Shown here: positions 10,665 through 64,000 of the stretch, in pieces
Position numbering within the stretch: the first letter of the stretch is position 1
Layout of the letters: each line of letters opens with the position of its first letter
Assembly: GCF_001888185.1 (NCBI RefSeq)
Contig: NZ_CP016364.1
Coordinates: forward strand, 2,852,001-2,916,000
Source of the DNA: Phaeobacter porticola
Lineage (GTDB): Bacteria; Pseudomonadota; Alphaproteobacteria; Rhodobacterales; Rhodobacteraceae
Reading direction: 5' to 3'
Length of the DNA: 64,000 nt
The notes under the pieces: model-generated
The model's input: only the letters and a program-made list of their open reading frames with translations
What the model was told of the DNA's origin: nothing
Database searches by the model: none
Position numbers and translations under genes: made by a program

Positions 10665-10966
10665 TGACGGGCGTCAAAAACAGCTGACACGAGCCCCCGC
10701 GGCCATCGGATTTATCGCTCTGAAGTCGGATCCGCCCGAGGCCACGGGCACTAGCCCAATACGCGTGGGCATGCGAACCGCCATCTGCCGCTTTACCCTT
10801 CCGTCGCGTAGGCCTATAAGGCCCCCATGTCCCATGTTGCGGCCATCATTATTCGAATTATATCCCCGGCGCTCTGACCACGTGAGCCGCCGGGCAAAGG
10901 TGCTTGAGCCATCGCACCGAACCGAATATCCCAAAACACGACCAGATCATCCAAAGGACGCTGCAC
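10665..10966 (+). promoter_or_regulatory. ileS upstream region with a sigma70-like promoter
   Basis: A 302-base gap. TTTACC at 10792-10797, a 17-base spacer and TATAAG at 10815-10820 form a good promoter, giving a leader of about 140 bases before ileS. No T-box or other riboswitch is recognised in the leader. Confidence 0.5.
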
Positions 10967-47112: not shown

Positions 47113-48207
47113 ATGACAGGCACAGATGACGGCGCGCAGCATCCGCAGGAAAATCGCACCCGCCCGCGCGGCAACGGCGTAGCCGCGCGCCTGTCGGGCC
47201 TGTGGGACCGGTATGTGGCCCTGCCTGGCGACCGGTTACGGTTCAGCGCCTCCGTGCGCCATATCTCTGGTCCGCGCCAACCTAAGTCCACGCCGGATGC
47301 GGTTACGGTGATCGCATTAGTGCGTGACGGGGCCTATTATCTGGATGTGTTTCTGAGCCACTACCGCGCCCTTGGGGTTACGCATTTTGTGTTCTGCGAC
47401 ACCGGTTCAGCAGATGGGACGCTGGCACGGCTGGCGGCGGAACCTGATGTCACCGTGTTGCAATCCTTGCTGCCCTGGGGCCGGTTTGAAAACATGTTCC
47501 GTGGCTATGCCGCCCGGAGGTTCTGTCAGGACCGCTGGTGTCTTTTTGCTGACATGGACGAGATCCTGGAGTTTGAGGGGCAGAACGCGGCCGGATTGCC
47601 TGGATTGATCACCTATCTCGAGCGTCACGGGTATACTGCTATGATGGCGCAAATGCTGGAGATGTTTCCCAATGCCCCGCTCACCACAGTGGCGGATCTG
47701 TCTTATCGCGCTGTTCAGGATCAATTCTGCCACTATGACATCACAGCGGTGCGCGCCCTGCCTTACGACAGCAAAGCGACAGGGCTGTCGTATTTCCTGC
47801 AACAGAATGAACTGCCAGACACAGCAGAGCCAAAAATGCAGTTTGATGGCATTCGTGGTGCCGTTTTTGGCGAGCGTTGCTGCCTTAGCAAGCATCCTCT
47901 GGTTCATATTGGTGAGGGGGTTGCTCCGGCGGTTCATCCGCATCTGTCCACGGGTGTCCGGGTTGCAGATGTCATGGCCGTTCTGAAACACTACAAATTC
48001 GCCAACAACGCCCTGGCCAGAGACCGTGCATCCCAGTCGAGCGAGGCCATTCCACATGGCGAAGATGCGCTGCGTGTGGCCGGATTTTCCGCCGATCCCG
48101 ATCTATCGCTTTGGTCCACTGCGGCGCAGGTCTATGAGGGTCCGGCGCTGTTGCGCGCGCAGGGATTTGTGCAACTGGCCCCTCGCTATCTGAAGGAAAT
48201 CACATAA
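47113..48207 (+). CDS. Glycosyltransferase, GT2-like (Glyco_tranf_2_4 type)
   Basis: A 364-aa cytoplasmic glycosyltransferase with a GT-A start VTVIALVRDGAYYLDVFLSHYRALGVTHFVFCDTGSADGTLARL and a DxD-type motif FADMDEILEF (about residue 145). This family of short-chain GT2 proteins adds sugars to polysaccharide or glycolipid. It lacks membrane segments. It is the first gene of the exopolysaccharide-like part of the locus and overlaps the next gene by one base (TAATG). Confidence 0.85.
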   Translation: MTGTDDGAQHPQENRTRPRGNGVAARLSGLWDRYVALPGDRLRFSASVRHISGPRQPKSTPDAVTVIALVRDGAYYLDVFLSHYRALGVTHFVFCDTGSADGTLARLAAEPDVTVLQSLLPWGRFENMFRGYAARRFCQDRWCLFADMDEILEFEGQNAAGLPGLITYLERHGYTAMMAQMLEMFPNAPLTTVADLSYRAVQDQFCHYDITAVRALPYDSKATGLSYFLQQNELPDTAEPKMQFDGIRGAVFGERCCLSKHPLVHIGEGVAPAVHPHLSTGVRVADVMAVLKHYKFANNALARDRASQSSEAIPHGEDALRVAGFSADPDLSLWSTAAQVYEGPALLRAQGFVQLAPRYLKEIT

Positions 48208-49196
48208 TGAATGGTGACCGAGACGCAGCGGCCCCGCCCGTCTCCGCGACGCCCTATGTCGACGCCGTCGTAATCGGCCGGAACGAGGGCGCACGATTGG
48301 TCAGCTGCCTGCGCAGTTTGCAAGGGCAGGTGCGGCAGGTGATCTACGTTGACAGCGGCTCGACCGACGGATCTGTAGCAGCGGCAGAGGCCTTGGGCGC
48401 GCATGCGATCTCGCTTGATATGAGCGAAGGTTTCACCGCCGCCCGCGCCCGCAACGCAGGTCTCGCACATCTGGCGGGGGATTGCACCTATGTGCAATTG
48501 GTGGACGCCGACTGCGATGTCGCTGTCGGCTGGATTCCTCTCGCCAAGTCTCGGCTGGAGGCAGATGCAAAGCTGGCCGTCGCCTGTGGCCGTCGCCGTG
48601 AACGCCATCCCGAAGCGTCGATTTACAATCAGCTTTGCGATCACGAATGGAATACGCCAATTGGCCCGACCAAGGCCTGCGGTGGCGACGCCCTGATGCG
48701 GCTGGCGGCCCTGAAGGAGGTCGGCGGATATCGCAACGACCTGATTGCTGGCGAAGAACCGGAGCTGTGCCTGCGTCTCGCACGGGCCAGTTGGGGCATT
48801 TGGCGGCTGGATGCAGAGATGACCCTGCATGACGCGCAAATGTACCGGTTTTCGCAATGGTGGCAACGCAGCCGTCGTGCTGGTTTTGCCTTTGCAGAGG
48901 GTGCAGCGCTGCATGGAACCGCGCCTGAGCGTCATTGGGTTGCAGAAACCCGGCGGGCATTGATTTGGGGCGCGGGATTGCCATTGGGTATTTTGTTGTT
49001 GGCCCTGATGTTTACCAGCTGGGCCTTGCTTCTGGCACTGATCTATCCGGCGCAATGGCTGCGCCTGTCGCGCCGAATGGGGGTGACGCGCGCGCTCTAT
49101 TCGGTGCTTGGCAAATTTGCCGAGGCACAGGGCGCGCTTGAATTCCACTGGCTGCGCCTTCGTGGCCGCAACCGTGGTCTGCTGGAATACAAATGA
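48207..49196 (+). CDS. Family 2 glycosyltransferase with C-terminal membrane segments
   Basis: A 329-aa GT2: VDAVVIGRNEGARLVSCLRSLQGQVRQVIYVDSGSTDGSVAAAEALG, DxD-like LVDADCDV (about residue 99), then AGEEPELCLRLARASWGIWRLDAEMTLHD as in dolichyl/undecaprenyl-type glycosyltransferases. Two hydrophobic segments near the end (WGAGLPLGILLLALMFTSWALLLALIYP) anchor it to the membrane. GAAGGA lies before the ATG. It is coupled to the previous gene and convergent with the WecG-like gene. Confidence 0.88.
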   Translation: MNGDRDAAAPPVSATPYVDAVVIGRNEGARLVSCLRSLQGQVRQVIYVDSGSTDGSVAAAEALGAHAISLDMSEGFTAARARNAGLAHLAGDCTYVQLVDADCDVAVGWIPLAKSRLEADAKLAVACGRRRERHPEASIYNQLCDHEWNTPIGPTKACGGDALMRLAALKEVGGYRNDLIAGEEPELCLRLARASWGIWRLDAEMTLHDAQMYRFSQWWQRSRRAGFAFAEGAALHGTAPERHWVAETRRALIWGAGLPLGILLLALMFTSWALLLALIYPAQWLRLSRRMGVTRALYSVLGKFAEAQGALEFHWLRLRGRNRGLLEYK

Positions 49197-49224: not shown

Positions 49225-49977
49225 TCAGGGGTGACGCAAGCGCAGTGCATGCAATAGCTGCCCCGGCAGGATCGCAAGACAGCGCAAATAGCGTGGCCCA
49301 AGCCTGCGCGGACTGCTGAGCGCCCGCCACAGCCATTCAAGCGCCAGTTTGCGAACCCATTCCGGCGCACGTTTCTGATGACCCCCCAGAAAATCCAAGC
49401 CAGCCCCAACAGAGGCAAACCCCACCTCTGGCGCAAGAGCCCGGCCACGGGCCGCCATGGCTTCCTGCTTGGGGGCCCCAAGAGCCAGGAAGCAGAGGCC
49501 GATCTGTCGGCGTCCAAGTTCTGACAGGATTTTCGCCGCCTCCTCTCCACTGGGATCAAACACCCCAGACGGCGCGTGACACCAGGCGACCTCCAATCCG
49601 GGCACCTCAGCGATAAGCGCCTCGGACGCATCCTTGAGGGCCTTATCAGTGCTGCCCACCAATGCGATTGGCACCCCGGCGCGCGCCGCCCAGCGGCACA
49701 AGGGCACGACCATGTCCGACCCCGGCATCAGTTCCACTGGCCGCTGTGCAAGCTGCGACAGCCAGACAATTGGCCGCCCGTCTGCCACGACAAAATCCTG
49801 CGCCGCGTACGCCTTAAGAAAGTCACCAGAGGCCCGCATCTTTACCAGGTGGTCGAGGTTCACTGTCGCCAGCGCAAAGCCGCGCCGGGTCTGAAAATGC
49901 CCCATCACAGCCTGCTCTAGCCGGGCGGCATCGGCTATATTCACCTCGATCCGCACATCATCAATTTCAAAATACAC
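49225..49977 (-). CDS. WecG/TagA/CpsF-family glycosyltransferase
   Basis: A 250-aa member of the GT26 family, which transfers N-acetylmannosamine-type sugars to lipid carriers in teichoic acid, ECA or capsule synthesis. Signature pieces: ATVNLDHLVKMRASGDFLKAYAAQDFVVADGRPIVWLS, SDMVVPLCRWAARAGVPIALVGSTD, FLALGAPKQEAMA and ASVGAGLDFLGGHQKRAPEWVRKLALEWLWR. The GTG at 49977 has GAGGGGG five bases upstream and is preferred to the ATG at 50019. It lies within a locus of polysaccharide genes on the opposite strand. Confidence 0.88.
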   Translation of the reverse strand: MYFEIDDVRIEVNIADAARLEQAVMGHFQTRRGFALATVNLDHLVKMRASGDFLKAYAAQDFVVADGRPIVWLSQLAQRPVELMPGSDMVVPLCRWAARAGVPIALVGSTDKALKDASEALIAEVPGLEVAWCHAPSGVFDPSGEEAAKILSELGRRQIGLCFLALGAPKQEAMAARGRALAPEVGFASVGAGLDFLGGHQKRAPEWVRKLALEWLWRALSSPRRLGPRYLRCLAILPGQLLHALRLRHP

Positions 49978-50151
49978 GTCTACCCCCTCATGCCCCGTCC
50001 AGCGCTGCCCATGTGCCACCCCTCTTCGATCACACGGCCTTGCGTCTCATTCAAGAGTTTACCTCAGACGACGAATGCGGGCGACATTGGGCGGATCTAA
50101 AGCTAAGCTTATGACCACGAGGGGCAAAAAAGAACGTAGGACCCGCAATCA

Positions 50152-51615
50152 ATGCCAAATGCACTGGCATATCTGATGCTGATCGCCTGGCCGGTGATCG
50201 CGTATCATCTGTTTCGGCGTCTGCCGCTGCAACAGGCGATTTTATGGTGTGTGATCGGCGGCTATCTGTTTCTACCGCCGTTGGCCGTATTCGACCTGCC
50301 GCTGGTCCCAGACATGGACAAGGATTCCATTCCCGCGGTCGTGGCCTTTGTGATCTGTGTCTACGTACTGGGCCACAAGGTGGAGATCTGGCCACGCCAT
50401 CCCGCAATGCGGGCACTGGTGGCGATATTTCTGGGCTCTGTCATCGCGACGGTTATGACCAACGGCGATCCGATTGTGTTCCGCGTAATTGAAAACGCCG
50501 AACCCATCGTTTTCCCCACCTATGCGTTGCCCGGTTTGCGGTGGCGCGATCTTGGGTCGGTGATGATCAACCAGTTCATCGTTCTTCTGCCCTTCTTTCT
50601 GGCGCGACGATACTTGTCGCATCCTGACCAACAGCGTCAGTTGGTTATAGTGCTGATGGTGGCTGGGCTGGTATACTCGATCCCCTCGCTGATCGAGGTG
50701 CGTTTTAGCCCGCAGGTCAATACCTGGATCTATGGTTTCTTCCAGCATGACTTTAGCCAAACCATGCGGCAAGGCGGGTTCCGGCCCATCGTATTCCTGC
50801 CCCACAGCCTGTGGCTGGCGCTGTTCATGCTGATGTCGGTACTGGCAGCAACTGCGCTCGCCCGTAGTTCAAAAGCTCCGGACCAACGGCGTTTCGCAAT
50901 GGCCGCCCTCTATCTTTTTGGGGTGTTGATCCTATGCAAGAGCATCGCATCGCTGGTCTATGGCCTTGTGTTTACGCCCTTTGTGGCAATGGCCTCATAT
51001 CGGATGCAGATGCGTCTGGCTCTGATCCTGGGGGTCATTGCCATTGTCTATCCCATGTTGCGCAACCTTGATTTGGTGCCGGTGGATGCCATTCTGGCAC
51101 AGGCACAGGCCTTTAGCCCTGAACGTGCACACTCATTGGGGTTTCGCTTTACCAATGAGGCCCTAATGCTGGATCGCACAGCTGAGAAACCCTGGTTCGG
51201 CTGGGGCGGCTGGGGCCGCAATCTGGTGCGTAATCTGGAAAGCGGAGAAATCGAGTCCATTCCAGACGGGCGTTGGATTCTGGTGTTCGGCACCTTTGGC
51301 TGGGTGGGCTACATTGCTGAAATGGGCCTGCTCGCCGGACCGTTGGTGCTGCTGTGGCAACAGATCCGCAAACATGCCGCCGCTACGCTTTCTCCCTTTG
51401 CCGCGCCGTTGGCGTTGATGCTGGCGGCCACTTTGGTCGATATGCTTTTGAACGCCACACTGACACCCGTGACCTGGCTCTGTGCGGGATCGGTGCTAGG
51501 CTACGCTGAGCGGTTGCGATACCCCGGTCTCTTCACGCCCAAACGGCAATTGTTCGATGGCAATCAGGCGCTGGCCACTGCGCCACCGCCACGCAAACGG
51601 CGCAGCGTGCTATGA
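50152..51615 (+). CDS. O-antigen ligase / Wzy-like polymerase membrane protein
   Basis: A 487-aa multi-spanning membrane protein with about ten to twelve hydrophobic segments, a large periplasmic loop between about residues 320 and 390, and the arrangement of Wzy polymerases and O-antigen ligases. The loop holds LGFRFTNEALMLDRTAEKPWFGWGGWGRN, resembling the conserved ligase region (an Arg-rich loop then a Trp-Gly-rich segment). The role is assembly or transfer of a lipid-linked glycan; the substrate is not readable. It is the last gene before the PKS, 257 bases upstream. Confidence 0.8.
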   Translation: MPNALAYLMLIAWPVIAYHLFRRLPLQQAILWCVIGGYLFLPPLAVFDLPLVPDMDKDSIPAVVAFVICVYVLGHKVEIWPRHPAMRALVAIFLGSVIATVMTNGDPIVFRVIENAEPIVFPTYALPGLRWRDLGSVMINQFIVLLPFFLARRYLSHPDQQRQLVIVLMVAGLVYSIPSLIEVRFSPQVNTWIYGFFQHDFSQTMRQGGFRPIVFLPHSLWLALFMLMSVLAATALARSSKAPDQRRFAMAALYLFGVLILCKSIASLVYGLVFTPFVAMASYRMQMRLALILGVIAIVYPMLRNLDLVPVDAILAQAQAFSPERAHSLGFRFTNEALMLDRTAEKPWFGWGGWGRNLVRNLESGEIESIPDGRWILVFGTFGWVGYIAEMGLLAGPLVLLWQQIRKHAAATLSPFAAPLALMLAATLVDMLLNATLTPVTWLCAGSVLGYAERLRYPGLFTPKRQLFDGNQALATAPPPRKRRSVL

Positions 51616-51872: not shown

Positions 51873-54800
51873 TTGGGGCAATTGAAGACATCTGGGAACA
51901 CCACGGATCGCACTCCGTTCGATGCCTCGCGGTACAGCGGGGATATCGCCATTGTGGGTATGTCACTCTGCGTGCCGGGTGCCCAGTCTCCCGGCGCATT
52001 CTGGCAAAATCTGCGCGACGGCGTGGAATCCATCCACCCCGTCAGCGAAACCGATCTGCTGGCCGCTGGTGAAGATGCAGACACAATTTCCGATCCCAAC
52101 TATGTGGCAGCAACAGCTGCACTAGATGGGTATGCGGAGTTTGACGCCGATTTTTTTGGTTTCAGCCCGAAGGAAGCCGCGATCCTTGACCCCCAACACC
52201 GCAAATTTCTGGAGGTTGCCTGGAACGCGATGGAGGATGCCGGTCATCCCCCCGAGAGTCTTGACGGTCCGATCGGGGTCTATGCCGGCTGCGGCATGGG
52301 AAGTTATTTCTACTTCAACATCTGCTCCAACAAGTCGCTGGTCGATGATGTGGGTATGTTCCTGCTGCGCCATACTGGCAACGACAAGGATTTCCTGTCC
52401 ACCCGCGTCAGCCATGTGTTCAATCTAAAAGGCCCGTCGGTGAACATTCAGACCGCCTGCTCAACCTCGCTGGTGGCAGTGCATTACGCCAGCAAGGCGC
52501 TGCGCGAGGGCGAGTGTGAGATGGCCCTTGCCGGAGGCGTCACGATTGAGCTGCCGCAGGGCCGGGGCTACCTGTTCAAGGAGAACGAAATCCTGTCACC
52601 GGACGGCCACTGCCATGCGTTTGACCACCGTGCGCAGGGGACCGTTTTTGGCTCCGGCGCGGGGGCGGTTGCATTGCGCCGTCTGGAGGATGCGCTGGCG
52701 GATGGCGATCACATCTGGGCCGTCATCAAGGGTTCGGCGATCAACAATGACGGCGCCGACAAGGCCGGCTATCTGGCCCCTTCGGTTGAGGGGCAGGCCA
52801 GCGCCGTGCGACAGGCGCTGCGCGCCGCCAAGACCCCGACGGATACCATCGACTATGTCGAATGCCACGGCACCGGAACCTATCTGGGTGACCCGATTGA
52901 GGTCACGGCCCTGACCGAGGCCTACCGTGAGACCACGTCGGCGGTCGGCTATTGCCGCATCGGCTCGGTCAAAACCAATATCGGGCATCTGGATACGGCC
53001 GCCGGTGTGGCCGGGCTGATCAAGACAACGCTCGCGCTGCATCATGGCCAGATCCCGCCCAGCCTCGGCTATGAGGCTCCGAACCCTGCGATTGACTTCG
53101 AGACCTCGCCTTTTGTGGTCAATGACCACTTGCGCGACTGGACCTCTGCCAAAGGCCCCCGCCGTGCTGCGATCAATGCGCTGGGGGTCGGCGGTACCAA
53201 CGCCCATGTGGTTCTGGAACAGGCCAGCGCCCGCCCAGCCCCAGAAGAAAGTGACTTTCCATTCCAGGTCTTATGCCTCTCTGGTCATTCCAAGGCGGCG
53301 CTGAATGCCAACTCCGCCGCGCTCGCAGCACATCTGCGTGCCAATCCTGAATCACCGCTGGAGGATGTTGCCTATACTCTGAAAGAAGGTCGGCGTGGTT
53401 TTGGCAAACGGCGGGTGCTGGTGGCAGAAACCACCGCAGAGGCCGCTAATCTGCTGGAGGCCGGTGATCCACGTCGGGTATTTGATCATGACAGCGCCGG
53501 TGCGGAACCCGAAGTTGTCTTCATGTTCCCCGGCGGTGGCGCGCAGTATGCCGGCATGGCGCGGGATCTCTATGAAACTGAACCGGTTTTCGCCGATTGG
53601 ATGGACCGGGGGTTGGATCACCTTCAGGCGCAGCTTGATTACGATATTCGTGCGCTGTGGCTGCCGGAACCGGGCGACGAGGACGCCGCCAATGCAAGGT
53701 TGAAACAGCCATCGGTGCAGCTGCCGCTGATCATGATCGTGGAGTTTGCACTGGCGCAACTGTGGATCAGCTGGGGCGTACGCCCCGCCGCGCTGGTTGG
53801 TCACTCCATGGGGGAGAACACCGCAGCCTGTCTGGCCGGAGTACTGTCGTTTGAGGATTGCATCGATTTGGTGCTGCTGCGTGGGCGTTTGTTTGACAAA
53901 GTGCCTGCCGGTGGGATGCTGTCGATTTCTCTCCCGCTTGAGGAGGTGGAGGCCCGGCTTACCGCCGATCTGGACATCGCCAGCGTCAATGCGCCGCGAT
54001 TGACCGCCGTGTCCGGTCCACAAGACGCCCTTGATGCGCTATCGGCCACGCTCACCGCAGATGAAATCGATCACCAGCGCATTCAGATCGACATTGCCGC
54101 CCACAGCCGGATGTTAGAGGGCATTCTGGATGAGTATCGCCAATTCCTGCGCGGCTTGTCCCTGTCCGCACCCGGTCGTCCGATCCTGTCAAACCGCAGC
54201 GGTCAGATCCTGACCGACGCCGAGGCAACCAACCCAGACTATTGGGTCAGCCAGCTGCGCAATACGGTGATGTTTGCCGCCTGCATCGACCATCTGGCCG
54301 AGACACCAAACCGGATCTATCTGGAGGTCGGCCCCGGCAAGGCGCTGTCCTCGCTGGCGCAGATGGCCCCGGCGATCAAACCCGGTCAGGTGCTCAGCTC
54401 ACTACGTCACCCCGATCAGGACATGGCCGATGATGCCTATTTCTTTGGCGTGATTGGGCGTCTCTGGGCCTGTGGGCTTGATGCGGACTGGGATCAGATC
54501 TGGGGAGATGCCCGCCGTCAGCGCCTGCCCCTGCCAACCTATGCGTTTCAGCGCAGCCGCTATTTCATCGAACCCGCCAAAGACAACATGCCAGAGCAGG
54601 CGCAGATCGCCCCCGCACGCCATGACAACCTTGCCGACTGGGGCTATCGCCCAAGCTGGCGACCAGCGCTGGCGAACTGCGACCTGGATGTCGAGAGCGA
54701 GCTGGGTCAACAGCCGGAAACCTGGCTGCTGTTCGAGGATGACACCGGGCTGTGTGCCGATCTGGCCCCACGGCTAGAACAGGCAGGCCATAGGGTGGTA

Positions 54801-57800
54801 CGGGTGGCCCCTGGCGACACCTATGCACAGCTGAGCGAGACCCGCTATATGCTGGCCCCCGAACAGGGGCGCGCGGGCTATGATGCGCTACTAGCCGATC
54901 TGGCGCTGGCGGATCTGCTGCCCAGTCGTATCGGCCACTTCTGGCTGGTCACTGAGGGCGAGAGCTTCCGTCCCGGCGCTTCCTTCTTTGATCGCAATCT
55001 GGAAATGGGCTTTTATGCGCTGACCGCGTTGGGGCAGGCGCTGGCACAGATCGACCTGCCGCATCCGCTACATCTGGTTGTCTTTACCACCGGAGCAGCG
55101 CAGCTGCGGGGCGAACCCCTGCCCTACCCGGAAAAGGCAATGATTGCCGGTCCCGTCGGGGTACTACCGCGCGAAATTCCCGGTCTCAGCTGCGCCACGG
55201 TTGATATCGAGCTGCCGCAGCGCGCCACGGGTCTGCGTCGCTGGCTCTCTGATCCGGCGCCGCTTGATCTCAGCACCCGCCTGCTAGAGGACTTGATGGC
55301 GGATCCATCGAATGAAATCGCGCTCTGGCGTGGCGATAAGCGCTATGGGCTACGCTGGCGTATGCAACCGCTGCCAGAGACACCTGAGGGCACCAAGACA
55401 GTGCCACAGTTCCGCAAGGGTGGCACCTACCTGATCACCGGTGGGTACGGTGGTATCGGACGCACTATCGCGGCCGATCTGATGCAGACGTATGACGCCA
55501 ATGTCGTGCTGGTCTCGCGCGGCGGGTTGCCACCGCGCAATAACTGGGAAAGCTATCTGAACCGCCACAGCCCGGCCAATACAACCGCGCAACGCATCCG
55601 CGCGGTGATGGCACTTGACGCAATCGGCAAGGGCCGAGTGTTGCCGCTGGCCGCGGATGTCTGCAACAGCGAGCAAATGCGCGCCGCTGTTGCAACGGCT
55701 GAGGAGACTTTTGGCCCGATCACCGGCGTTATTCACGGTGCCGGGCAGATCAACGATGCGCCGGTTCTGGCCAAAACAGAGGAAGATATTGCCCAAGTCC
55801 TCGCCCCAAAGGTCAGCGGGCTGAGAGTTCTCGACGCCATCTTCGGCGCGGGTCAGCTGGAGTTGATGGTGCTGTTTTCCTCCTCTTCAACGGTGACGCG
55901 CCCGATTGGCCAGGTGGACTATGTCGCGGCCAATGAATACCTCAACGCCTTTGCCAAACATCGCACGGCTCTCTCCTCACCGGATCAGAGCACACATGTA
56001 GTCGCTGTCGACTGGGGTGTCTGGGCGGACGTCGGGATGGCGGCAGAGGCCCTCGGCGCACACCAGCCCGAGGCGGGCAGCGACCCCATCCCCTGCGATC
56101 AACCGCTGTTTGACAGCCGCCAATTTGCCCATGACGGCAGCTTGCTGTTTCACCGCCGATTGACCCGTGATCAGTGGGTTCTGGATGACCACCGCACCAG
56201 GGATGGCACCGCGCTGATCCCCGGTACTGGTTATATCGAATATGCCGCTGAGGCGCTGGCAGAGTTGGGTCATGACGCGCCTTTCGCGCTGCGCGATCTC
56301 TATTTCCTGCGACCTCTGGTGGTCACGGGAACACCTTGCGATATGATAGTCCGGTTGACCCCGGTGGAACGCGGCTATGACTTTGCGGTCTACAGCCGCA
56401 CCGCGGAAGGCTATGCGCTGCATGTACAGGCGCTGCTGGACACCGATATCGACGGGGGCAAACCTGCGCCGGTCGATATCGCTGAGCTGAGGCTCCGCAT
56501 GCCAGAGGTATCGGTGGCCACCCCCGCAGAACGACTGAAAACACCGCAGGAAGCGCATCTGAAATTCGGTCCTCGCTGGCATGTTCTGGAAGAGATACGC
56601 CACGGTGCTGCAGAAGGTCTTGCCCAGCTGAAACTGCCGCAGATTGCCGAGAAAGACGGAACACTGCTGCCCCCCGGGCTGATGGATCTGGCCACCGGCT
56701 GGGCCATTGATCTGGCCCCGGCCTATCGGGGCACCGCGCTTTGGGTGCCGGTATCCTATGACAGCATCCAGATCTTTGCCCCGCTGCCCATTGACCTGCT
56801 GAGCCATATGCGGCTGGTCGACAGCACCGCAAGTAGCGCACGGTTTGACATCACGCTGGCGGCAGCTGATGGCACTGTTGTGGCAGAAATCCGTGGGTTT
56901 CAAATGCAGCAGCTGCCCGGCGCGACCAATCTGGCCCCGGCAGAGGGCGCAGACGCCAGCGCTGAGGATCTGGGCCTGACCACCCCCGGCAGTGCGCAGC
57001 CCTTGTCACCGGAGGAACGTCGCCTTCACCGCAATATCGCCCAGGGGATCCGCGCCGAGGACGGCCCCGAGGCGCTGCGCCGTGCGCTTGCCACCGGGCT
57101 GTCGCAGGTGGTGGTCTCTTCGCTGGCGCTGCCGGATCTGATTGCACAGGCCGATCAACCACCGCCGCAGAATGCCGATACCAGCCAGAGCTTTGAGCGA
57201 CCACAACTGGACACCGATTACCTTGCCCCGCGCAATGCCGTGGAGGAAGACATCGCCGCTCAGTTCGCGCGCCTCCTTGGAGTGGCGCAGGTTGGGGTTG
57301 AGGACAGTTTCTTTGACCTCGGCGGTCATTCCCTGATCGCGGTCCGGCTTTTTGCGCAGATCAAGCGCAGCTTTGGCGTTGATCTGGCGATCTCCACCCT
57401 GTTTGAGGCCCCCTCGGTTGCCAAGCTGGCAGAGCTGGTGATTGCGCGCACTGGTGGCGGTCTCACCACCGAGACCCCGGTTGAGGCCACAGGCGACACA
57501 ACGGCTGAGGCCCCCAGCTACACCCATCTGGTCCAGCTGCATCCCGGTGATGGCACCGGGCGGCGGCCATTCTTCCTGGTGGCGGGCATGTTTGGCAATG
57601 TGCTGAACCTGCGCCATCTGGCGCTGATGGTTGGGAAGGACCGCCCCGTTTACGGGCTGCAGGCCCGCGGCCTGATCGGTGAGGATGCGCCACATGACCG
57701 TTTGGACGAGGCCGCACGCGATTATCTTGTGGAAATCCGCAGCGTCCAGCCCGACGGCCCTTATCTGCTGGGCGGGTTCTCCGGCGGCGGGCTGACCGCC

Positions 57801-58370
57801 TACGAGATGGCCCAGCAATTGCAGGCCGAGGGTGAAGAGACTGCCGCGCTGATCCTTTTGGACACGCCGCTGCCGCTGCGCCCGGACCTGTCGCGCCGCG
57901 ACAAGGTGCGGATCAAATGGGCCGAACTGCGCAGCAAGGGGATCGGCTACCTGGGCGAATGGATCGGCAATCGTATCGCCTGGGAGATCGAGAAACGCCG
58001 CTATGCTGCCAGCGGCGACAGCGCAGCGCCAGTGTTCAACAACCGCAAGGTCGAACTGGCCTTCCGCGCCGCTCTGCCCGCTTATGACCTGCAGCCTTGG
58101 TCCGGGCCACTGACGCTGTTCCGCCCGCCGCTGGACCGGCACTGGCAGGTCTCTGCCGGGAATTGGGTTAGCCGCGAGCGGGAATATGTCTTTGATGACA
58201 ACGACTGGACCCGCTGGGCCCCCGCCGTTGAGGTGGTCGAGGTCCCCGGCGATCACGACAGTATGGTTCTGGTGCCCAATGTCAGTGTGCTGGCTGGAGA
58301 AGTGAAGGCGCGACTGGATGCCGCCGACGCCGCAGCGCTGGCCCACAGCACCGCGGAGGCGGCAGAATGA
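51873..58370 (+). CDS. Type I polyketide synthase, KS-AT-KR-DH-ACP-TE
   Basis: A 2165-aa megasynthase. KS, residues 24-450: Cys196 in QTACSTSL, His332 in ECHGTGT, His372 in NIGHLDTAAG. AT, 545-830: Ser645 in GHSMGE; its specificity region reads IAAHS, not YASH or HAFH. KR, 1175-1370: GGYGGIG, then Ser in FSSSST, Tyr1350 and Asn1354. DH-like, 1412-1690: His1440 in DDHRTRDGTALIPG and Asp1605; it lies after the KR and its His-Gly spacing is one residue longer than usual. ACP: Ser1820 in LGGHSL. TE, 1890-2145: Ser1970 in GGFSGGG, His in PGDHDSM. All active sites look intact. The terminal TE says this module ends a chain although the gene comes first in the operon. TTG start with GAGGACGA upstream. 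Confidence 0.93.
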   Translation: MGQLKTSGNTTDRTPFDASRYSGDIAIVGMSLCVPGAQSPGAFWQNLRDGVESIHPVSETDLLAAGEDADTISDPNYVAATAALDGYAEFDADFFGFSPKEAAILDPQHRKFLEVAWNAMEDAGHPPESLDGPIGVYAGCGMGSYFYFNICSNKSLVDDVGMFLLRHTGNDKDFLSTRVSHVFNLKGPSVNIQTACSTSLVAVHYASKALREGECEMALAGGVTIELPQGRGYLFKENEILSPDGHCHAFDHRAQGTVFGSGAGAVALRRLEDALADGDHIWAVIKGSAINNDGADKAGYLAPSVEGQASAVRQALRAAKTPTDTIDYVECHGTGTYLGDPIEVTALTEAYRETTSAVGYCRIGSVKTNIGHLDTAAGVAGLIKTTLALHHGQIPPSLGYEAPNPAIDFETSPFVVNDHLRDWTSAKGPRRAAINALGVGGTNAHVVLEQASARPAPEESDFPFQVLCLSGHSKAALNANSAALAAHLRANPESPLEDVAYTLKEGRRGFGKRRVLVAETTAEAANLLEAGDPRRVFDHDSAGAEPEVVFMFPGGGAQYAGMARDLYETEPVFADWMDRGLDHLQAQLDYDIRALWLPEPGDEDAANARLKQPSVQLPLIMIVEFALAQLWISWGVRPAALVGHSMGENTAACLAGVLSFEDCIDLVLLRGRLFDKVPAGGMLSISLPLEEVEARLTADLDIASVNAPRLTAVSGPQDALDALSATLTADEIDHQRIQIDIAAHSRMLEGILDEYRQFLRGLSLSAPGRPILSNRSGQILTDAEATNPDYWVSQLRNTVMFAACIDHLAETPNRIYLEVGPGKALSSLAQMAPAIKPGQVLSSLRHPDQDMADDAYFFGVIGRLWACGLDADWDQIWGDARRQRLPLPTYAFQRSRYFIEPAKDNMPEQAQIAPARHDNLADWGYRPSWRPALANCDLDVESELGQQPETWLLFEDDTGLCADLAPRLEQAGHRVVRVAPGDTYAQLSETRYMLAPEQGRAGYDALLADLALADLLPSRIGHFWLVTEGESFRPGASFFDRNLEMGFYALTALGQALAQIDLPHPLHLVVFTTGAAQLRGEPLPYPEKAMIAGPVGVLPREIPGLSCATVDIELPQRATGLRRWLSDPAPLDLSTRLLEDLMADPSNEIALWRGDKRYGLRWRMQPLPETPEGTKTVPQFRKGGTYLITGGYGGIGRTIAADLMQTYDANVVLVSRGGLPPRNNWESYLNRHSPANTTAQRIRAVMALDAIGKGRVLPLAADVCNSEQMRAAVATAEETFGPITGVIHGAGQINDAPVLAKTEEDIAQVLAPKVSGLRVLDAIFGAGQLELMVLFSSSSTVTRPIGQVDYVAANEYLNAFAKHRTALSSPDQSTHVVAVDWGVWADVGMAAEALGAHQPEAGSDPIPCDQPLFDSRQFAHDGSLLFHRRLTRDQWVLDDHRTRDGTALIPGTGYIEYAAEALAELGHDAPFALRDLYFLRPLVVTGTPCDMIVRLTPVERGYDFAVYSRTAEGYALHVQALLDTDIDGGKPAPVDIAELRLRMPEVSVATPAERLKTPQEAHLKFGPRWHVLEEIRHGAAEGLAQLKLPQIAEKDGTLLPPGLMDLATGWAIDLAPAYRGTALWVPVSYDSIQIFAPLPIDLLSHMRLVDSTASSARFDITLAAADGTVVAEIRGFQMQQLPGATNLAPAEGADASAEDLGLTTPGSAQPLSPEERRLHRNIAQGIRAEDGPEALRRALATGLSQVVVSSLALPDLIAQADQPPPQNADTSQSFERPQLDTDYLAPRNAVEEDIAAQFARLLGVAQVGVEDSFFDLGGHSLIAVRLFAQIKRSFGVDLAISTLFEAPSVAKLAELVIARTGGGLTTETPVEATGDTTAEAPSYTHLVQLHPGDGTGRRPFFLVAGMFGNVLNLRHLALMVGKDRPVYGLQARGLIGEDAPHDRLDEAARDYLVEIRSVQPDGPYLLGGFSGGGLTAYEMAQQLQAEGEETAALILLDTPLPLRPDLSRRDKVRIKWAELRSKGIGYLGEWIGNRIAWEIEKRRYAASGDSAAPVFNNRKVELAFRAALPAYDLQPWSGPLTLFRPPLDRHWQVSAGNWVSREREYVFDDNDWTRWAPAVEVVEVPGDHDSMVLVPNVSVLAGEVKARLDAADAAALAHSTAEAAE

Positions 58371-59437
58371 CCAACGCCACCGCCCCCTTCGCCGCGCAGC
58401 CTGTAGACGCCTCCTCGGGCGGTACAAATGCGCGCATTCTGACCATCATCCTGAACTACAAAACGCCTCAGATGACGCTGGACTGCGCCGCTGCCGCGCT
58501 GGAGCAGATGGAAGAGCTGCCCGGTGAAGTGGTGATCATCGATAACGGCTCCGCCGATGGCTCTTATGAGCAGCTGCTCACGGCGGTGCAGGCGCGCGGC
58601 TGGCTCGACAGCGGCCGCCTGCGTCTGATCGCCAGCGACCGCAACGGCGGGTTTGGCGCGGGCATGAATATTGGGCTTCGCCTTGGCCTGTCCGATGGCA
58701 GCGCCCCGGAGTTCTACTACCTGCTGAACTCGGATGCCTTTGTGCAACCGGGTGCGATCCGCGCGTTGCGAGATTTTCTGCAAGCGACCCCCGGCGCCGG
58801 TCTGGTCGGCTCTTATGTGCGCGGCACCGATGGGACGCCCCATTGTACCGCCTTTCGCTTTCCCACCATCGCGGGGGAGTTTGAATCCTCGGTTCGGACC
58901 GGCATTGTGACGCGCCTGCTGAAAGATGCCGTGGTGCCGATGGAGATCCCCACCACGCCGACACAGTTGGATTGGACCGCTGGTGCCAGTCTGATGATCC
59001 GCCGCGAGGTGATTGATGCGGTGGGCGGGTTTGACGAGACGTTCTTTCTCTACTTTGAGGAAACCGAGCTGTGCCACCGTGCCGCCCGCGCTGGCTGGAG
59101 CACGCATTACCTGCCGGAAAGCGAGGTGGCCCATGTGGGATCCGCCTCAACCGGGATGAAAGACTGGCAGCGCACCCCGCAATACTGGTTCGACAGCCGG
59201 TTGCATTACTTTCTCAGCACCCATGGGCGGGCCTATACGGTCGGAGCCACACTGGCGCTGATCAGTGGCAGCCTGCTCTATGGGCTGCGGCGGCTGGTAT
59301 CGGACAAACCTGCCTCCGATCCACCCTATTTTCTGCGGGATCTGATCGTTCATCATAGCCGCGCGATCTTTCGCCGCCGAAAAAACCAACCTATGGAACC
59401 GCGCCAGACCCCGTCTCAACCGGAGGAGCAGAAATGA
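58367..59437 (+). CDS. Family 2 glycosyltransferase within the PKS-NRPS operon
   Basis: A 356-aa GT2 resembling rhamnosyltransferases: ILTIILNYKTPQMTLDCAAAALEQMEELPGEVVIIDNGSADGSYEQL, NGGFGAGMNIGLRLGL, LLNSDAFVQPGAIRAL and FDETFFLYFEETELCHRAARAGWSTHYLPESEVAHVG. It overlaps the PKS stop by four bases (ATGA) and the NRPS start by four bases (ATGA), so it is coupled to both. This placement suggests it glycosylates the PKS-NRPS product rather than a capsule, though the upstream polysaccharide genes allow the other view. Confidence 0.9.
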   Translation: MTNATAPFAAQPVDASSGGTNARILTIILNYKTPQMTLDCAAAALEQMEELPGEVVIIDNGSADGSYEQLLTAVQARGWLDSGRLRLIASDRNGGFGAGMNIGLRLGLSDGSAPEFYYLLNSDAFVQPGAIRALRDFLQATPGAGLVGSYVRGTDGTPHCTAFRFPTIAGEFESSVRTGIVTRLLKDAVVPMEIPTTPTQLDWTAGASLMIRREVIDAVGGFDETFFLYFEETELCHRAARAGWSTHYLPESEVAHVGSASTGMKDWQRTPQYWFDSRLHYFLSTHGRAYTVGATLALISGSLLYGLRRLVSDKPASDPPYFLRDLIVHHSRAIFRRRKNQPMEPRQTPSQPEEQK

Positions 59438-62400
59438 CCCCATTCTCCTGTATCGTTCTTGGCAATGAATCGCTGCTTGTTGCCTGCGCGGACACATTGC
59501 TGGCCCGCAGTCACAGCATTGCCGCCGTGGTTACAAAAGACGCCGAAATCCGCCAGTGGGCCGCTGACAAGAGCCTGACTGTGCTTGAAGACGCGCGCGA
59601 TTTTGACGGATCCGTGGACTGGCTGCTGTCCATCGCCAACCTTGAGATCATCCCCGACAGCGTGCTGGCCCGCGCGAGCAAGGGCGGCGTCAATTTTCAC
59701 GACGGTCCGCTGCCACGTTATGCCGGCCTCAATACACCGAACTGGGCCTTGATCGAAGGGGCCACGGAGTATGGCATCACCTGGCACATGATTGAGGGCG
59801 GCGTGGATGAGGGTGATATCCTCGCCCAGCGCCTGTTTGCGATTGCCGGGGATGAGACGGCCTATAGTCTCAACGCCAAATGCTATGCCGCCGCGATGGA
59901 TAGTTTCGCCGATGTGCTGGGGCAATTGGAAACCGGCACGCTGGCGCGGCAGGCGCAGGATTTCAGCACCCGCAAACTCTATACACGCGCTGACCGTCCC
60001 GAAGCGGGCGCACTGCTGGATCTGGCGCAGCCCGCAGCTGATTTGCACCAGCTGGTGCGCGCCCTTGATTTCAACGGGTACTGGAACCCGCTTTGTGCTG
60101 CGAAAATACAGCTAGGCAAAGATGGCGCGGCAGCGGTGGCGCTGATCGGAGCGACTGAAGTTGCGGAAGGATCCGGCGCGCCGGGCACCGTGCTGGCTGT
60201 GGACGACACGACGGTGACACTGGCCTGCGGCGACGGTGCGCTTCGGCTTGACGGGTTGCACTACAGCGACGGGCGCCCGATCCGCGCCACTGATCATGTT
60301 CAAACGGGGGATATTCTACCGTCCCCTGATGCAGCAGCCCGCAGCGATTTGACCCGGCGACTGGCCGCGACGCAGGCCAGCGAGGGTAAATGGCGCAAGG
60401 CGCTGGCGGCCCTGCCCGCTGTGGATCTGCCCTTGGCAGGTCCGGCAGCTGATGGCGCCGCGGAAATCAACCACCTCACGCTCTCCCACAATGCGACCCT
60501 GACAGAGGTCGATGTGCTGAGCATCGCCCTTGCCCTCACGCTATCCAGCACCGGGGCGGAGGCTGCCGGGATCGCGCTCAGCACCGACGCACTACAGGAG
60601 GCTGCCATCGCCGGGATGATCTGTGACTGGGTGCCGGTGCAGGCCCGCCGCGATGCACCCCTTGACGATTTGCGATCCCGGTTGACTGCGGAGTTGGACA
60701 GCACCCGCAACAGCGGTGGATTTGCGGCCGATCTGATCGCCCGCGCGCCGGAGCTGCGACAGACCGGGGGCAGCGGCCTCTGCCCGGATATCGGCTGCAT
60801 GCTGGGGCGCGCGCAACATATCGAAAGATGTGCGGCGACCCTTTCCCTGACAGAGGGCGCGCTGGCCCTGCATATCGATACAGGCCGACTGGATGCGCAA
60901 GCTGCTGAGCTGCTGATGGGCCGGGTCGAAATGCTGGCCAATGTGCTGGCCTCGGCGTCCGGTGGCACCATCGCAGATCTACCCGTCCTGCCAGAGGCCG
61001 AACGGCGGCAGATGTTGGTGAACTGGAACAGCACCGCCCGTTCCGCCACCGGGCAAAGCACCATACCGGCGGAGTTTGCGGCACAGGTTGCACGAACCCC
61101 GGAGGCCACGGCGCTGGTTTATGAGGGTGAGAGCCTGACCTATGCCGAGCTCTCTGCGCAGGTTGATGACCTGGCTGCCATCCTGCATGACCGCGGCGTG
61201 GCACCGGGCAGCCATGTCGGCATCTATCTGGGGCGCGGGCCTGATCTGGTGATTGCCGCCCTCGCCACGATGGCGGCGGGCGGGGCTTATGTACCGCTGG
61301 ATCCCGCCTATCCGGCGGATCGCATTGCACATTTCATCACCGACAGCGCCGCAAGCGTGATCCTGACCGACAGCGGACACCGGGACCAGCTGCCGACCAC
61401 ACTGTCAGCCGATATCCTGTGCCTTGACGCCCTGCCCGAGGTCTCCGCCGTAGCTGAGACGTCTGCCACAGCGCCCGGCCCACAGGATCTGGCCTATCTG
61501 ATCTACACGTCCGGCTCCACCGGCACGCCCAAAGGCGTGATGGTCCGCCATGGCAATGTTGCGAATTTCTTTGCCGCCATGGATGACCGCATCCCGCATC
61601 AGCCGGGGGACTGCTGGCTGGCGGTGACAAGCCTGTCGTTCGACATCTCCGTGCTGGAACTGTTCTGGACCTTGTCGCGCGGCTTCAAACTGGTGCTGTC
61701 CAGTGATGAGGCGCGGTTGCAGCTGTCCAATGGCCCGGTTGCCACCAGTGATCGCGGCATGGATTTCAACCTGTTTTACTGGGGCAACGACGATGGTCCC
61801 GGCCCCCGCAAATATGAACTGCTGCTGGAGGGCGCGAAATTCGCCGATCAGCATGGGTTCAATGCGGTCTGGACACCGGAGCGGCATTTCCACGCCTTTG
61901 GCGGCCCCTATCCGAACCCGGCGGTGACCGGCGCGGCGGTGGCTGCGGTCACGAAAAATATCGGCGTGCGCGCGGGATCCTGCGTGGCGCCGCTGCACCA
62001 CCCGGCCCGCATTGCCGAGGAATGGTCGGTGATCGACAATCTGACAGATGGGCGCGCGGGTATAGGCTTTGCCTCTGGCTGGCAACCGGATGATTTCATC
62101 CTGCGCCCCGAAAACACCCCCCCCGCCAATAAGCCTGCGCTGTTCGAGGCCATTGAGACGGTGCGGAAACTCTGGCGTGGAGAGGAGGTCGCCTTCCCGC
62201 GCAAGGACGGTGGTGAACATGCGGTCCTGACGCAGCCGCGCCCTGTGTCAAAGGAGCTGCCGGTCTGGGTCACCACGGCGGGCAATCCCGAAACCTGGCG
62301 CGAGGCGGGCAGTATCGGGGCCAACGTTCTGACCCATCTGCTGGGACAAAGCATTGAGGAGGTCGCGGGCAAAATCACCATCTATCATGCTGCCCTGCGC

Positions 62401-64000
62401 GCCGCCGGTCACGACCCGCGCGATCACAAGGTGACGCTGATGCTACACAGCTATCTGGCCGACACCCGCGAAGGCGCGCGCGCCACAGCCCGAGAACCGA
62501 TGAAGGATTACCTGCGCGCGGCGGCTGGCCTGATCAAGCAATACGCCTGGGCCTTTCCGGCCTTCAAGAAACCTGAAGGGGTGAAAAACCCGTTTGAGAT
62601 GGACCTCGGCATGCTGTCGGAAGAAGAGCTGGAGGCCATTCTGGACTTCGCCTTTGAGCGGTATTTTGAGGATTCTGGCCTGTTTGGCACCATTGCGGAT
62701 GCCCTGCAGCGGGTGGAGCAGCTCAAGCAGATCGGCGTTGATGAGATTGCCTGCCTGATCGACTATGGCATCGCGCCGGAGATCGTGCTGGAGGGGCTGA
62801 AACCCCTTGCAGAGGTGCTGCGCCTTGCCAACGCCCCGCAGGAACTGGCGGCGGAGGATGTCTCGCTTGCGGCGCAAATCCTGCGTCACGGCGTCACCCA
62901 TATGCAATGCACCCCGTCGATGGCCCGGATGATCAACGCGGACGCCGATGCGAGCCCGGTGCTGGGGCGGCTTTCGCATCTGTTGATCGGCGGGGAGGCG
63001 CTGCCGGGCGATCTGGTGGCCAGCCTGCGCGCGACAACCCGTGCCGAAATCCACAATATGTATGGACCGACGGAGACAACGATCTGGTCGACCATGCAAA
63101 CCCTCGCGAACGAGCCGACAGGCACGGCGCAGATCGGTGCGCCGATTGCTAATACGACTGTTTATGTCGTCGATGACAGCCAGACCCCGCAGCCAGTTGG
63201 TGTGCCCGGCGAATTGCTGATCGGCGGCGCCGGTGTAACCGCTGGTTACTGGCAGCGCCCAGATCTCACGGCGGAGCGTTTCATTCCTGATCCCTTTGCC
63301 GATGCGGGGACGCATGTGCCCTCAACCCACCTATACCGCACGGGAGATCTGGTGCGCTGGCGTGGTGACGGTCAGCTGGAATTCCTGGGCCGCAGCGATC
63401 ATCAGGTCAAAATTCGCGGCCAGCGGATCGAACTGGGCGAAATCGAGGCCGCGCTGACGGCGATGGTCGGCATCACGGGGGCCGTGGTCATCGCCCGCGA
63501 AACCGCAGGTGACACCCGCCTGATCGCCTATGTAACCGGGCCTATGGTACCGGATCAGGCGGCGCTGAAGGCAGCGCTCACGCAACAACTGGCTGCTGTC
63601 ATGGTGCCGAGCCATATCGAACATCTCGACGCCTTCCCGCTGACCCCAAACAAGAAGATAGACCGCAAGGCACTGCCGGACCCCAAACCGGTACAGATTT
63701 CCGCGCCCGCCTCCGACGCGCCGCTCAGCGCCGGGGCACAGAGCAAGATTGCCGAAATCTGGAGTGGCATCCTTGGCATCAGTGGCATTGGGGCTGACGA
63801 CAATTTCTTCACCCTTGGCGGGCATTCACTGCTGGCGGTGCAGGCCCATCGCGACATCCGCAGCACACTGGAGGTCGCAAAACTGTCGATCACAGACATC
63901 TTCCGCTTCCCCACCCTGTCGGGACTGGCAAATCACATTGAGACGCTAAACGGTGGTGGCAGCCGCGAAGACACCACAAACGCCCCGGCTGTGGATGCCG
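59434..64000 (+). CDS. Nonribosomal peptide synthetase, partial: formyltransferase-C(partial)-A(monooxygenase insert)-PCP
   Basis: At least 1522 aa, running off the window with no stop. Residues 1-300 are an Fmt-like formyltransferase (NFHDGPLPRYAGLN with Asn-x-His, then GGVDEGDILAQ with the catalytic Asp). Residues 310-540 look like the second half of a condensation domain, without HHxxxDG. The A domain (545-1420) has YTSGSTGTPKG, SFDISVLELFWTL, NMYGPTETTIW, YRTGDLVRW and NKKIDRKALP, and is split after the SFDIS motif by a luciferase-like flavin monooxygenase (774-1111; MDFNLFYWGNDDGPGP, VWTPERHFHAFGGPYPN). Specificity residues read D-I-L-Q-L-G-M-I-W-K, the glycine code with one change. PCP Ser1465 in LGGHSLL. 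GGAGGAG precedes the ATG. Confidence 0.93.
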   Translation, partial: MTPFSCIVLGNESLLVACADTLLARSHSIAAVVTKDAEIRQWAADKSLTVLEDARDFDGSVDWLLSIANLEIIPDSVLARASKGGVNFHDGPLPRYAGLNTPNWALIEGATEYGITWHMIEGGVDEGDILAQRLFAIAGDETAYSLNAKCYAAAMDSFADVLGQLETGTLARQAQDFSTRKLYTRADRPEAGALLDLAQPAADLHQLVRALDFNGYWNPLCAAKIQLGKDGAAAVALIGATEVAEGSGAPGTVLAVDDTTVTLACGDGALRLDGLHYSDGRPIRATDHVQTGDILPSPDAAARSDLTRRLAATQASEGKWRKALAALPAVDLPLAGPAADGAAEINHLTLSHNATLTEVDVLSIALALTLSSTGAEAAGIALSTDALQEAAIAGMICDWVPVQARRDAPLDDLRSRLTAELDSTRNSGGFAADLIARAPELRQTGGSGLCPDIGCMLGRAQHIERCAATLSLTEGALALHIDTGRLDAQAAELLMGRVEMLANVLASASGGTIADLPVLPEAERRQMLVNWNSTARSATGQSTIPAEFAAQVARTPEATALVYEGESLTYAELSAQVDDLAAILHDRGVAPGSHVGIYLGRGPDLVIAALATMAAGGAYVPLDPAYPADRIAHFITDSAASVILTDSGHRDQLPTTLSADILCLDALPEVSAVAETSATAPGPQDLAYLIYTSGSTGTPKGVMVRHGNVANFFAAMDDRIPHQPGDCWLAVTSLSFDISVLELFWTLSRGFKLVLSSDEARLQLSNGPVATSDRGMDFNLFYWGNDDGPGPRKYELLLEGAKFADQHGFNAVWTPERHFHAFGGPYPNPAVTGAAVAAVTKNIGVRAGSCVAPLHHPARIAEEWSVIDNLTDGRAGIGFASGWQPDDFILRPENTPPANKPALFEAIETVRKLWRGEEVAFPRKDGGEHAVLTQPRPVSKELPVWVTTAGNPETWREAGSIGANVLTHLLGQSIEEVAGKITIYHAALRAAGHDPRDHKVTLMLHSYLADTREGARATAREPMKDYLRAAAGLIKQYAWAFPAFKKPEGVKNPFEMDLGMLSEEELEAILDFAFERYFEDSGLFGTIADALQRVEQLKQIGVDEIACLIDYGIAPEIVLEGLKPLAEVLRLANAPQELAAEDVSLAAQILRHGVTHMQCTPSMARMINADADASPVLGRLSHLLIGGEALPGDLVASLRATTRAEIHNMYGPTETTIWSTMQTLANEPTGTAQIGAPIANTTVYVVDDSQTPQPVGVPGELLIGGAGVTAGYWQRPDLTAERFIPDPFADAGTHVPSTHLYRTGDLVRWRGDGQLEFLGRSDHQVKIRGQRIELGEIEAALTAMVGITGAVVIARETAGDTRLIAYVTGPMVPDQAALKAALTQQLAAVMVPSHIEHLDAFPLTPNKKIDRKALPDPKPVQISAPASDAPLSAGAQSKIAEIWSGILGISGIGADDNFFTLGGHSLLAVQAHRDIRSTLEVAKLSITDIFRFPTLSGLANHIETLNGGGSREDTTNAPAVDA

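Follow-up and report, generated by a model that had tools for sequence, protein, structure and literature searches.

When an adenylation (A) domain of a nonribosomal peptide synthetase (NRPS) carries a flavin oxygenase in its interior, does the module end a chain or begin one? This question is raised by a locus of Phaeobacter porticola at the end of the 64,000-nucleotide stretch of DNA analysed here, which we call the window (contig NZ_CP016364.1, positions 2,852,001 to 2,916,000). The NRPS gene starts on the + strand at 59434 and fills the remainder of the window (59434..64000), its stop codon ending at 64068, beyond the window on the same contig. It encodes 1544 amino acids, for which domain profiles give the order formyltransferase (F), C-terminal half of a condensation (C) domain, A domain interrupted by a luciferase-like monooxygenase (LLM) and carrier (T) domain. 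By Pfam and NCBIfam, Formyl_trans_N/C covers residues 60-288, AMP-binding 548-762 and TIGR04020 778-1128; the A domain resumes at about 1122-1142 and its remainder, with AMP-binding_C at 1336-1408, reaches to about 1414, followed by PP-binding at 1438-1502.

The preliminary description, made from the DNA letters alone, had placed a luciferase-like monooxygenase between motifs A4 and A5. Annotation of the full protein bears this out, with TIGR04020 lying within AMP-binding, and finds the formyltransferase and the truncated C domain in addition. The embedded domain (residues 778-1128; 61765..62817, + strand) belongs to TIGR04020, the MupA/Atu3671 family of LLMs, scoring 470.9 bits over positions 1-340 of the 341-position model, where the curated cut-off is 244.45; the extent first given for it, 61753-62766 (residues 774-1111), gives way to that of this match. 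It is placed after FDIS (736-739) and before NMYGPTE (1208-1214), which we take to be A4 and A5, and so separates the first part of the A domain (A1-A4; 61075..61719, +; Pfam AMP-binding) from the second (A5-A10; 62857..63675, +; Pfam and NCBIfam). At E 1e-60 the family was found in none of 14 well-known control genomes; at E 0.001 ten of these 14 had matches, none above the curated cut-off, and because no control genome exceeds that value the match goes beyond a general luciferase-like likeness. In the window's own genome two weaker relatives occur, each in an open frame some 345 amino acids long and thus not embedded.

A predicted structure indicates that the A domain closes around the insert. 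Residues 535-1421, modelled with AlphaFold2 from 45 rows (mean pLDDT 87, pTM 0.64), match complete A domains (1amu, TM 0.69-0.70 by target; 8www chain A, 0.74) in alignments of about 885-890 columns, which take in both flanks of the insert. The model also matches the PuwE oxygenase 6ket at TM 0.91 by target; in a separate search the embedded domain had a match to 6ket at E 2e-97. Since both 1amu and 8www chain A superpose on it with a high overall rmsd (12-14 Å), the relative placing of the model's parts is uncertain. Besides the window's own row, the two structure alignments used for this study took in 44 out of 63 usable named rows in one case and 37 out of 50 in the other. To the idea that the insert is an inactive relic we give almost no credence. 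No point in its support was found, and against it the solved PuwE domain has the same residue at 72 of the 77 LLM positions that show at least 95% conservation in the named loci, which are the best 80 of at least 590 matches to a Deinococcus query row and include many metagenome bins; those TIGR04020 rows of the family survey whose match covers the model reach about 447-500 bits, versus the cut-off of 244. Doubly interrupted A domains also occur (L192:6586-12537, L219:6622-12474, L160:1525-7080 and L070:10561-16023), in which an LLM between A4 and A5 is accompanied by a later methyltransferase domain, likewise inside the A domain; in Nostoc L070 this second insert is an FkbM-type methyltransferase.

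By motif alignment the ten pocket residues of the A domain read DILQLGMIWK, at positions that we take to follow GrsA numbering, and the code derived earlier by hand was therefore right. Its reading as a glycine code also stands, although not as "one change from" the known one: in the available part of a survey of 2051 A domains, the four glycine domains with a monooxygenase all carry exactly DILQLGMIWK (PMC12283262). The pattern DILQ-x-GM-[IV]-W, with M, L, Y or F at the fifth position, recurs in 97 rows from 100 regions of the window's family (L042-L061 and L073-L152, taken from 99 of 144 matching genomes mostly by score, a non-random choice); two of the other three rows are wholly gapped at the pocket and one mostly, reading D-M at the first three positions. 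Among the named loci (the best 80 of at least 590), all 51 with an F domain upstream of the interrupted A domain (F-type) fit DILQ[MLC]G[MV][IV]WK where covered, two being part-gapped, and the pockets of four of the 21 with a C domain there (C-type) are degenerate and not glycine-like. Because insert family, A4-A5 site and glycine code agree with the MtaG/MelG type, alpha-hydroxylation is the most likely chemistry of the oxygenase. The myxobacterial loci L193, L208, L209 and L230 have an LLM in an A domain with a degenerate pocket and a short second part, and no T domain was found there ahead of the next C domain. On a Streptomyces plasmid (L068), an LLM-interrupted module with the pocket DMVQLGMVWK and a flavin reductase adjoin the amino-group-carrier genes LysW/LysX.

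What lies upstream of the A domain bears more directly on our question. Residues 1-288 (59434..60297, +) form a formyltransferase domain with the catalytic residues N87-H89-D125, as in the F domain of LgrA, supported by Pfam, by fold and by the intact triad; the AlphaFold2 model of residues 1-545 (pLDDT 86, pTM 0.86; 38 rows) matches ArnA and methionyl-tRNA formyltransferases. The N-H-D triad is kept in 92 of the 100 family rows, six being gapped there and two (L049, L140) different, and in 49 of the 51 F-type rows among the best 80 of at least 590 named loci, where L204 and L225 differ. These four cases of changed catalytic residues speak against a starter reading. Between F and A, about 250 residues (60361..61068, +) align to the C-terminal half of C domains (hhalign, 99.9%; columns 191-480 of 480, the end of the alignment taking in the first A-domain residues), without the half that bears HHxxxDG. 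Because the stretch aligns to this half only, F occupies the place of the catalytic half of a C domain. At the other end, the T domain (63745..63939, +; Pfam PP-binding) has its serine, Ser1465, in LGGHS, and this residue is present in 95 of the 100 family rows, the remaining five being gapped. A Pfam scan of the NRPS protein found neither a condensation domain nor a thioesterase (TE).

Thus, of the features of the MtaG/MelG type, the A4-A5 insertion and the glycine code are present, and the full C domain and the TE after T are absent. We read the protein as an initiation module, not a terminating one, because F and half a C domain replace the full C domain, there is no TE of its own, and a separate polyketide synthase (PKS) lies nearby. 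The parallel with MtaG/MelG drawn in the preliminary description therefore holds for insert family, site and glycine code, and is not supported for the terminal amide on an upstream chain; as the default outcome that amide was set aside for lack of a peptidyl donor and a TE (Pfam, hhalign). The sole amide that an MtaG-like cleavage could free here is formamide.

Taking together the domain order, the intact motifs, the pocket code, the predicted folds, the conserved PKS company and the neighbouring polysaccharide genes, we put at about an even chance that the protein is a starter module which N-formylates and oxidises glycine and so primes a one-module PKS, the whole lying within an exopolysaccharide cluster. 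The A domain would load glycine onto the T domain, and F, drawing on formyl-tetrahydrofolate, would formylate the amino group of that glycine. Next the embedded oxygenase, FMN-dependent, would hydroxylate the N-formyl-glycyl thioester at its alpha-carbon. Since the formyl group would play the role of the upstream peptidyl chain of the MtaG type, turning the nitrogen into an amide, this step would give a carbinolamide. What T carries would be N-formyl-alpha-hydroxyglycyl-S-T, or glyoxylyl after loss of formamide, and KS-AT-KR-DH-ACP-TE would extend it once and release it, the C4 product ending in or on a polysaccharide. In this scheme we infer the order of the reactions, the site of oxidation, the transfer to the PKS, the number of extensions and the fate of the product.

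Two variants concern what happens to the glycine. An MtaG-like cleavage would split the hydroxylated N-formyl-glycyl thioester into formamide and glyoxylyl-S-T, so that a two-carbon aldehyde primes the PKS. In the accessible text on myxothiazol and melithiazol the carbinolamide is indeed cleaved, leaving a glyoxyl thioester (PMC10204066), the insertion site is the same, the code is common to glycine-monooxygenase domains, and the LLM of the Pyxidicoccus fallax locus L189 is 54% identical to that of the window. We nevertheless think this outcome unlikely, as the window's NRPS protein lacks the TE of L189, and solanimycin B, by the part of the same source available, keeps its hydroxyglycine (PMC10204066). 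A formyl group put on merely to be lost would, moreover, be wasteful. Alternatively, the oxygenase could hydroxylate the nitrogen, yielding the hadacidin-like N-formyl-N-hydroxyglycine or, if the DH took part, an oxime of the sort put forward for the glycine-primed necroxime line. An F domain beside an oxygenase recalls the N-formyl-N-hydroxy groups of siderophores. In the necroxime pathway, as far as the available text describes it, a glycine primer is modified by Oxy, DH and MT domains (PMC7318616). Those relatives and analogues with a role described in the parts of the literature at hand act on the carbon alpha to the thioester (PMC4219810, PMC10204066), and N-hydroxylation seems to us improbable.

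Does the association of F with the oxygenase extend beyond this genome? The oxygenase domain is not peculiar to the window: at E 1e-60, TIGR04020 is found in all 7 genomes of its genus and in 144 of 394 genomes of its family (own genome included in both), or in 143 of the 393 genera in a sample drawn evenly over genera. In the class sample it occurs in just 6 of 289, four of them of the window's family. Upstream of the interrupted A domain, the best 80 of at least 590 named loci have F in 51 cases and C in 21, the latter assigned by profile in 19 and by eye in L197 and L213. Five of the other eight are cut before the upstream part, L157 has the C half only, and in L207 and L227 what lies upstream is short, so that the 75 loci with this part present divide into 51 F, 21 C and three with neither. 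F-type modules from this best 80 of at least 590 come under 12 phylum names, many of the rows being metagenome bins. A quick tree of 88 rows, built without bootstrap, with six of the 80 named loci lost to length filters and 14 rows added from elsewhere (L068 and L071 labelled C-type by eye), puts the window's protein in a large, mainly F-type part, beside relatives of its own family. The F and C labels cannot be placed on this tree with fewer than five changes, and its deepest forks are weakly supported. The NRPS rows of L156 (Comamonas) and L158 (Myxococcus) are nearly identical, which suggests recent transfer or contamination.

To judge from these sequences, the oxygenase may need an N-acyl-glycine, which F would supply where nothing lies upstream. 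The need fits the data since 72 of the 75 modules with an upstream part carry C or F (among the best 80 of at least 590). Against a strict N-acyl rule speak the three named loci with neither domain and a Deinococcus plasmid protein. The latter, an A(LLM)-T protein at L069:10762-15075, has no F or C by Pfam in the approximately 410 residues of frame upstream, and adjoins PKS and polysaccharide genes.

The likely acceptor of the starter is a type I PKS of one module, KS-AT-KR-DH-ACP-TE by domain profiles (51873..58370, +). A GT2 glycosyltransferase (Pfam; 58367..59437, +) stands between it and the NRPS gene, and in the window 4-base overlaps join PKS to glycosyltransferase, glycosyltransferase to NRPS and NRPS to the gene for a phosphopantetheinyl transferase (PPTase). 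Across the 100 family regions, a PKS homologue of at least 400 bits is present in 93 (87 of the 88 regions of at least 19 kb), a homologue of the intervening GT2 in 86 (80 of 88) and one of the PPTase in 76 (68 of 88). The PKS architecture is the same in 75 of 77 uncut family PKSs and, for the loci from the best 80 of at least 590, in 21 of 26 uncut F-type ones. In the window's own family the PKS precedes the NRPS in 91 of 93 cases, the reverse of the expected order; in F-type named loci with a PKS of at least 400 bits (from the best 80 of at least 590), a same-strand PKS follows the NRPS in 30 of 34. A PKS passing this threshold lies near 34 of the 51 F-type, 9 of the 21 C-type and 3 of the 8 unclassified loci among the best 80 of at least 590; of the 17 F-type loci in that set without one, 14 have no usable match and three a weak one, some being short contigs and others not. 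We had also considered an MSKRR-like C-terminal tail of the NRPS, possibly docking to the PKS, as proof of transfer between the two, and dropped it when the tail appeared in only 28 of the 100 family rows. In the available part of a genome paper on Phaeobacter, a PKS and an NRPS appear as Inhi_1972 and Inhi_1974, two locus tags from each other, and no function is given for them (PMC4062626).

Further upstream the window's cluster has the look of a polysaccharide locus. It contains two GT2 glycosyltransferases (47113-48207 and 48207-49196, +), a WecG/TagA/CpsF glycosyltransferase (49225..50019, -), a Wzy/O-antigen-ligase-like protein with a weak match (50152..51615, +; Wzy_C at E 0.011, under its cut-off), and also a flippase, a weak Wzz match and a sugar transferase. 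Ten polysaccharide queries, with the GT2 between PKS and NRPS excluded, matched 65 of the 88 large family regions and none of them matched in the other 23; they gave no match in window positions 1-40000. In that part of the window, an 859-aa open frame (10814-13393, -) runs antisense to a class I tRNA synthetase gene (10904-13897, +); no Pfam family matches it, and base composition has probably produced it as an artefact. For 20 genomes, the polysaccharide queries matched 15 of the 20 NRPS regions versus none of 20 equally long control stretches from those genomes. By annotation, PKS, NRPS and sugar genes also stand together in named relatives on plasmids of Parasedimentitalea, Shinella, Paracoccus and Aminobacter; in the stretch covered of the Aliiroseovarius and Streptomyces records no polysaccharide-synthesis genes were seen, and the records of Neorhizobium and Methylobacterium came unannotated. 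Among the best 80 of at least 590 named loci, 11 queries found matches in 17 of the 51 F-type loci (16 when the GT2 between PKS and NRPS is left out), in none of the 21 C-type and in 2 of the 8 unclassified. Because just 17 of the 51 F-type loci match, the polysaccharide link is firm for the window's family only.

These figures also bear on the possibility that the product is a free small molecule (a signal, chelator or antibiotic), with the glycan genes adjoining through shared regulation. The PKS does terminate in a TE, the polysaccharide matches reach only those 17 of 51 F-type loci (from the best 80 of at least 590), and among the neighbours we identified no transferase that would move the acyl unit onto a sugar. 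Two proteins after the PPTase gene, of 327 aa (L005:5692-6675) and 852 aa (L005:6672-9230), matched no Pfam family at E 0.001, nor at E 1, where the first was read from a later start; their homologues occur in 27 and 19 of the 88 large family regions, respectively. The GT2 that separates PKS from NRPS in the window has a homologue in 80 of the 88 large family regions, and polysaccharide genes accompany 15 of 20 NRPS regions versus 0 of 20 controls; both findings argue the other way, and we see the free product as a minority possibility.

At its widest, the starter reading would mean that a C4 unit (N-formyl-alpha-hydroxyglycine or glyoxylyl plus malonate), made by a two-protein line with representatives under a dozen phylum names, is built into extracellular polysaccharide, the formyl cap replacing the peptide chain required by the oxygenase. 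We offer this as a tentative proposal and a rather doubtful one. If true, it would define a class of polysaccharide substituent derived from NRPS/PKS chemistry. If the starter reading is right, the reason for pairing F with a glycine oxygenase would be the supply of an N-acyl group, and a little-explored kind of NRPS/PKS product would be linked to bacterial surface polysaccharides. It should be noted that F domains are rare on record, with only three nonribosomal peptides having one according to the available part of a 2022 review (PMC8949500), versus an intact triad in 92 of 100 family regions and F-type modules under 12 phylum names.

How, then, does the module compare with known systems? 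One of the closest is the initiation module of linear gramicidin, LgrA (F-A-T), which likewise has an N-terminal formyltransferase of Fmt/ArnA fold with N-H-D residues ahead of A-T. The window's protein differs from LgrA, which reportedly lacks both an oxygenase and a half C domain ahead of A1 and serves a peptide line. MtaG and MelG, here compared through their published description, resemble the window's protein in that a flavin oxygenase interrupts their glycine A domain at the A4-A5 site; as far as the source is available, theirs end the chain, with a thioesterase after T, and release an amide, whereas here F and half a C domain begin one, without a TE (PMC10204066). Their stand-in among our sequences, the best on architecture and chosen for it, is L189, with TubC_N followed by C-A(LLM)-T-TE and the pocket DILQLGMIWK, which falls in the C-type part of the tree. 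By the same partial account, glycine-monooxygenase modules hydroxylate the alpha-carbon in the myxothiazol, melithiazol and solanimycin pathways; SolF of the last has a glycine A domain with a flavin oxygenase and makes alpha-hydroxyglycine, as proposed here, but there the oxygenase interrupts the domain between a8 and a9, and the glycine comes after an acyl chain (PMC10204066). The PuwE oxygenase domain is the closest solved structure to the insert; it differs, in the text available, by lying between an aminotransferase and an NRPS module, not within A, and by acting on a beta-amino acyl chain, with a proposed part in making a 2-hydroxy acyl chain (PMC4219810). Of the oxime-forming glycine starters, such as those of necroxime and lobatamide, the necroxime one, as described, shares a glycine primer, an oxygenase and PKS modules with DH; its PKS is trans-AT and the accessible description mentions no F domain (PMC7318616). 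Neither an F-A(MOX)-T module nor the combination of F, a monooxygenase-bearing A domain and a C half with a usual PKS partner was found in searches of open-licence PMC text. Judged by site and code, the embedded oxygenase is of the known MtaG/MelG kind, and it is its place in a formylating starter unit that looks new.
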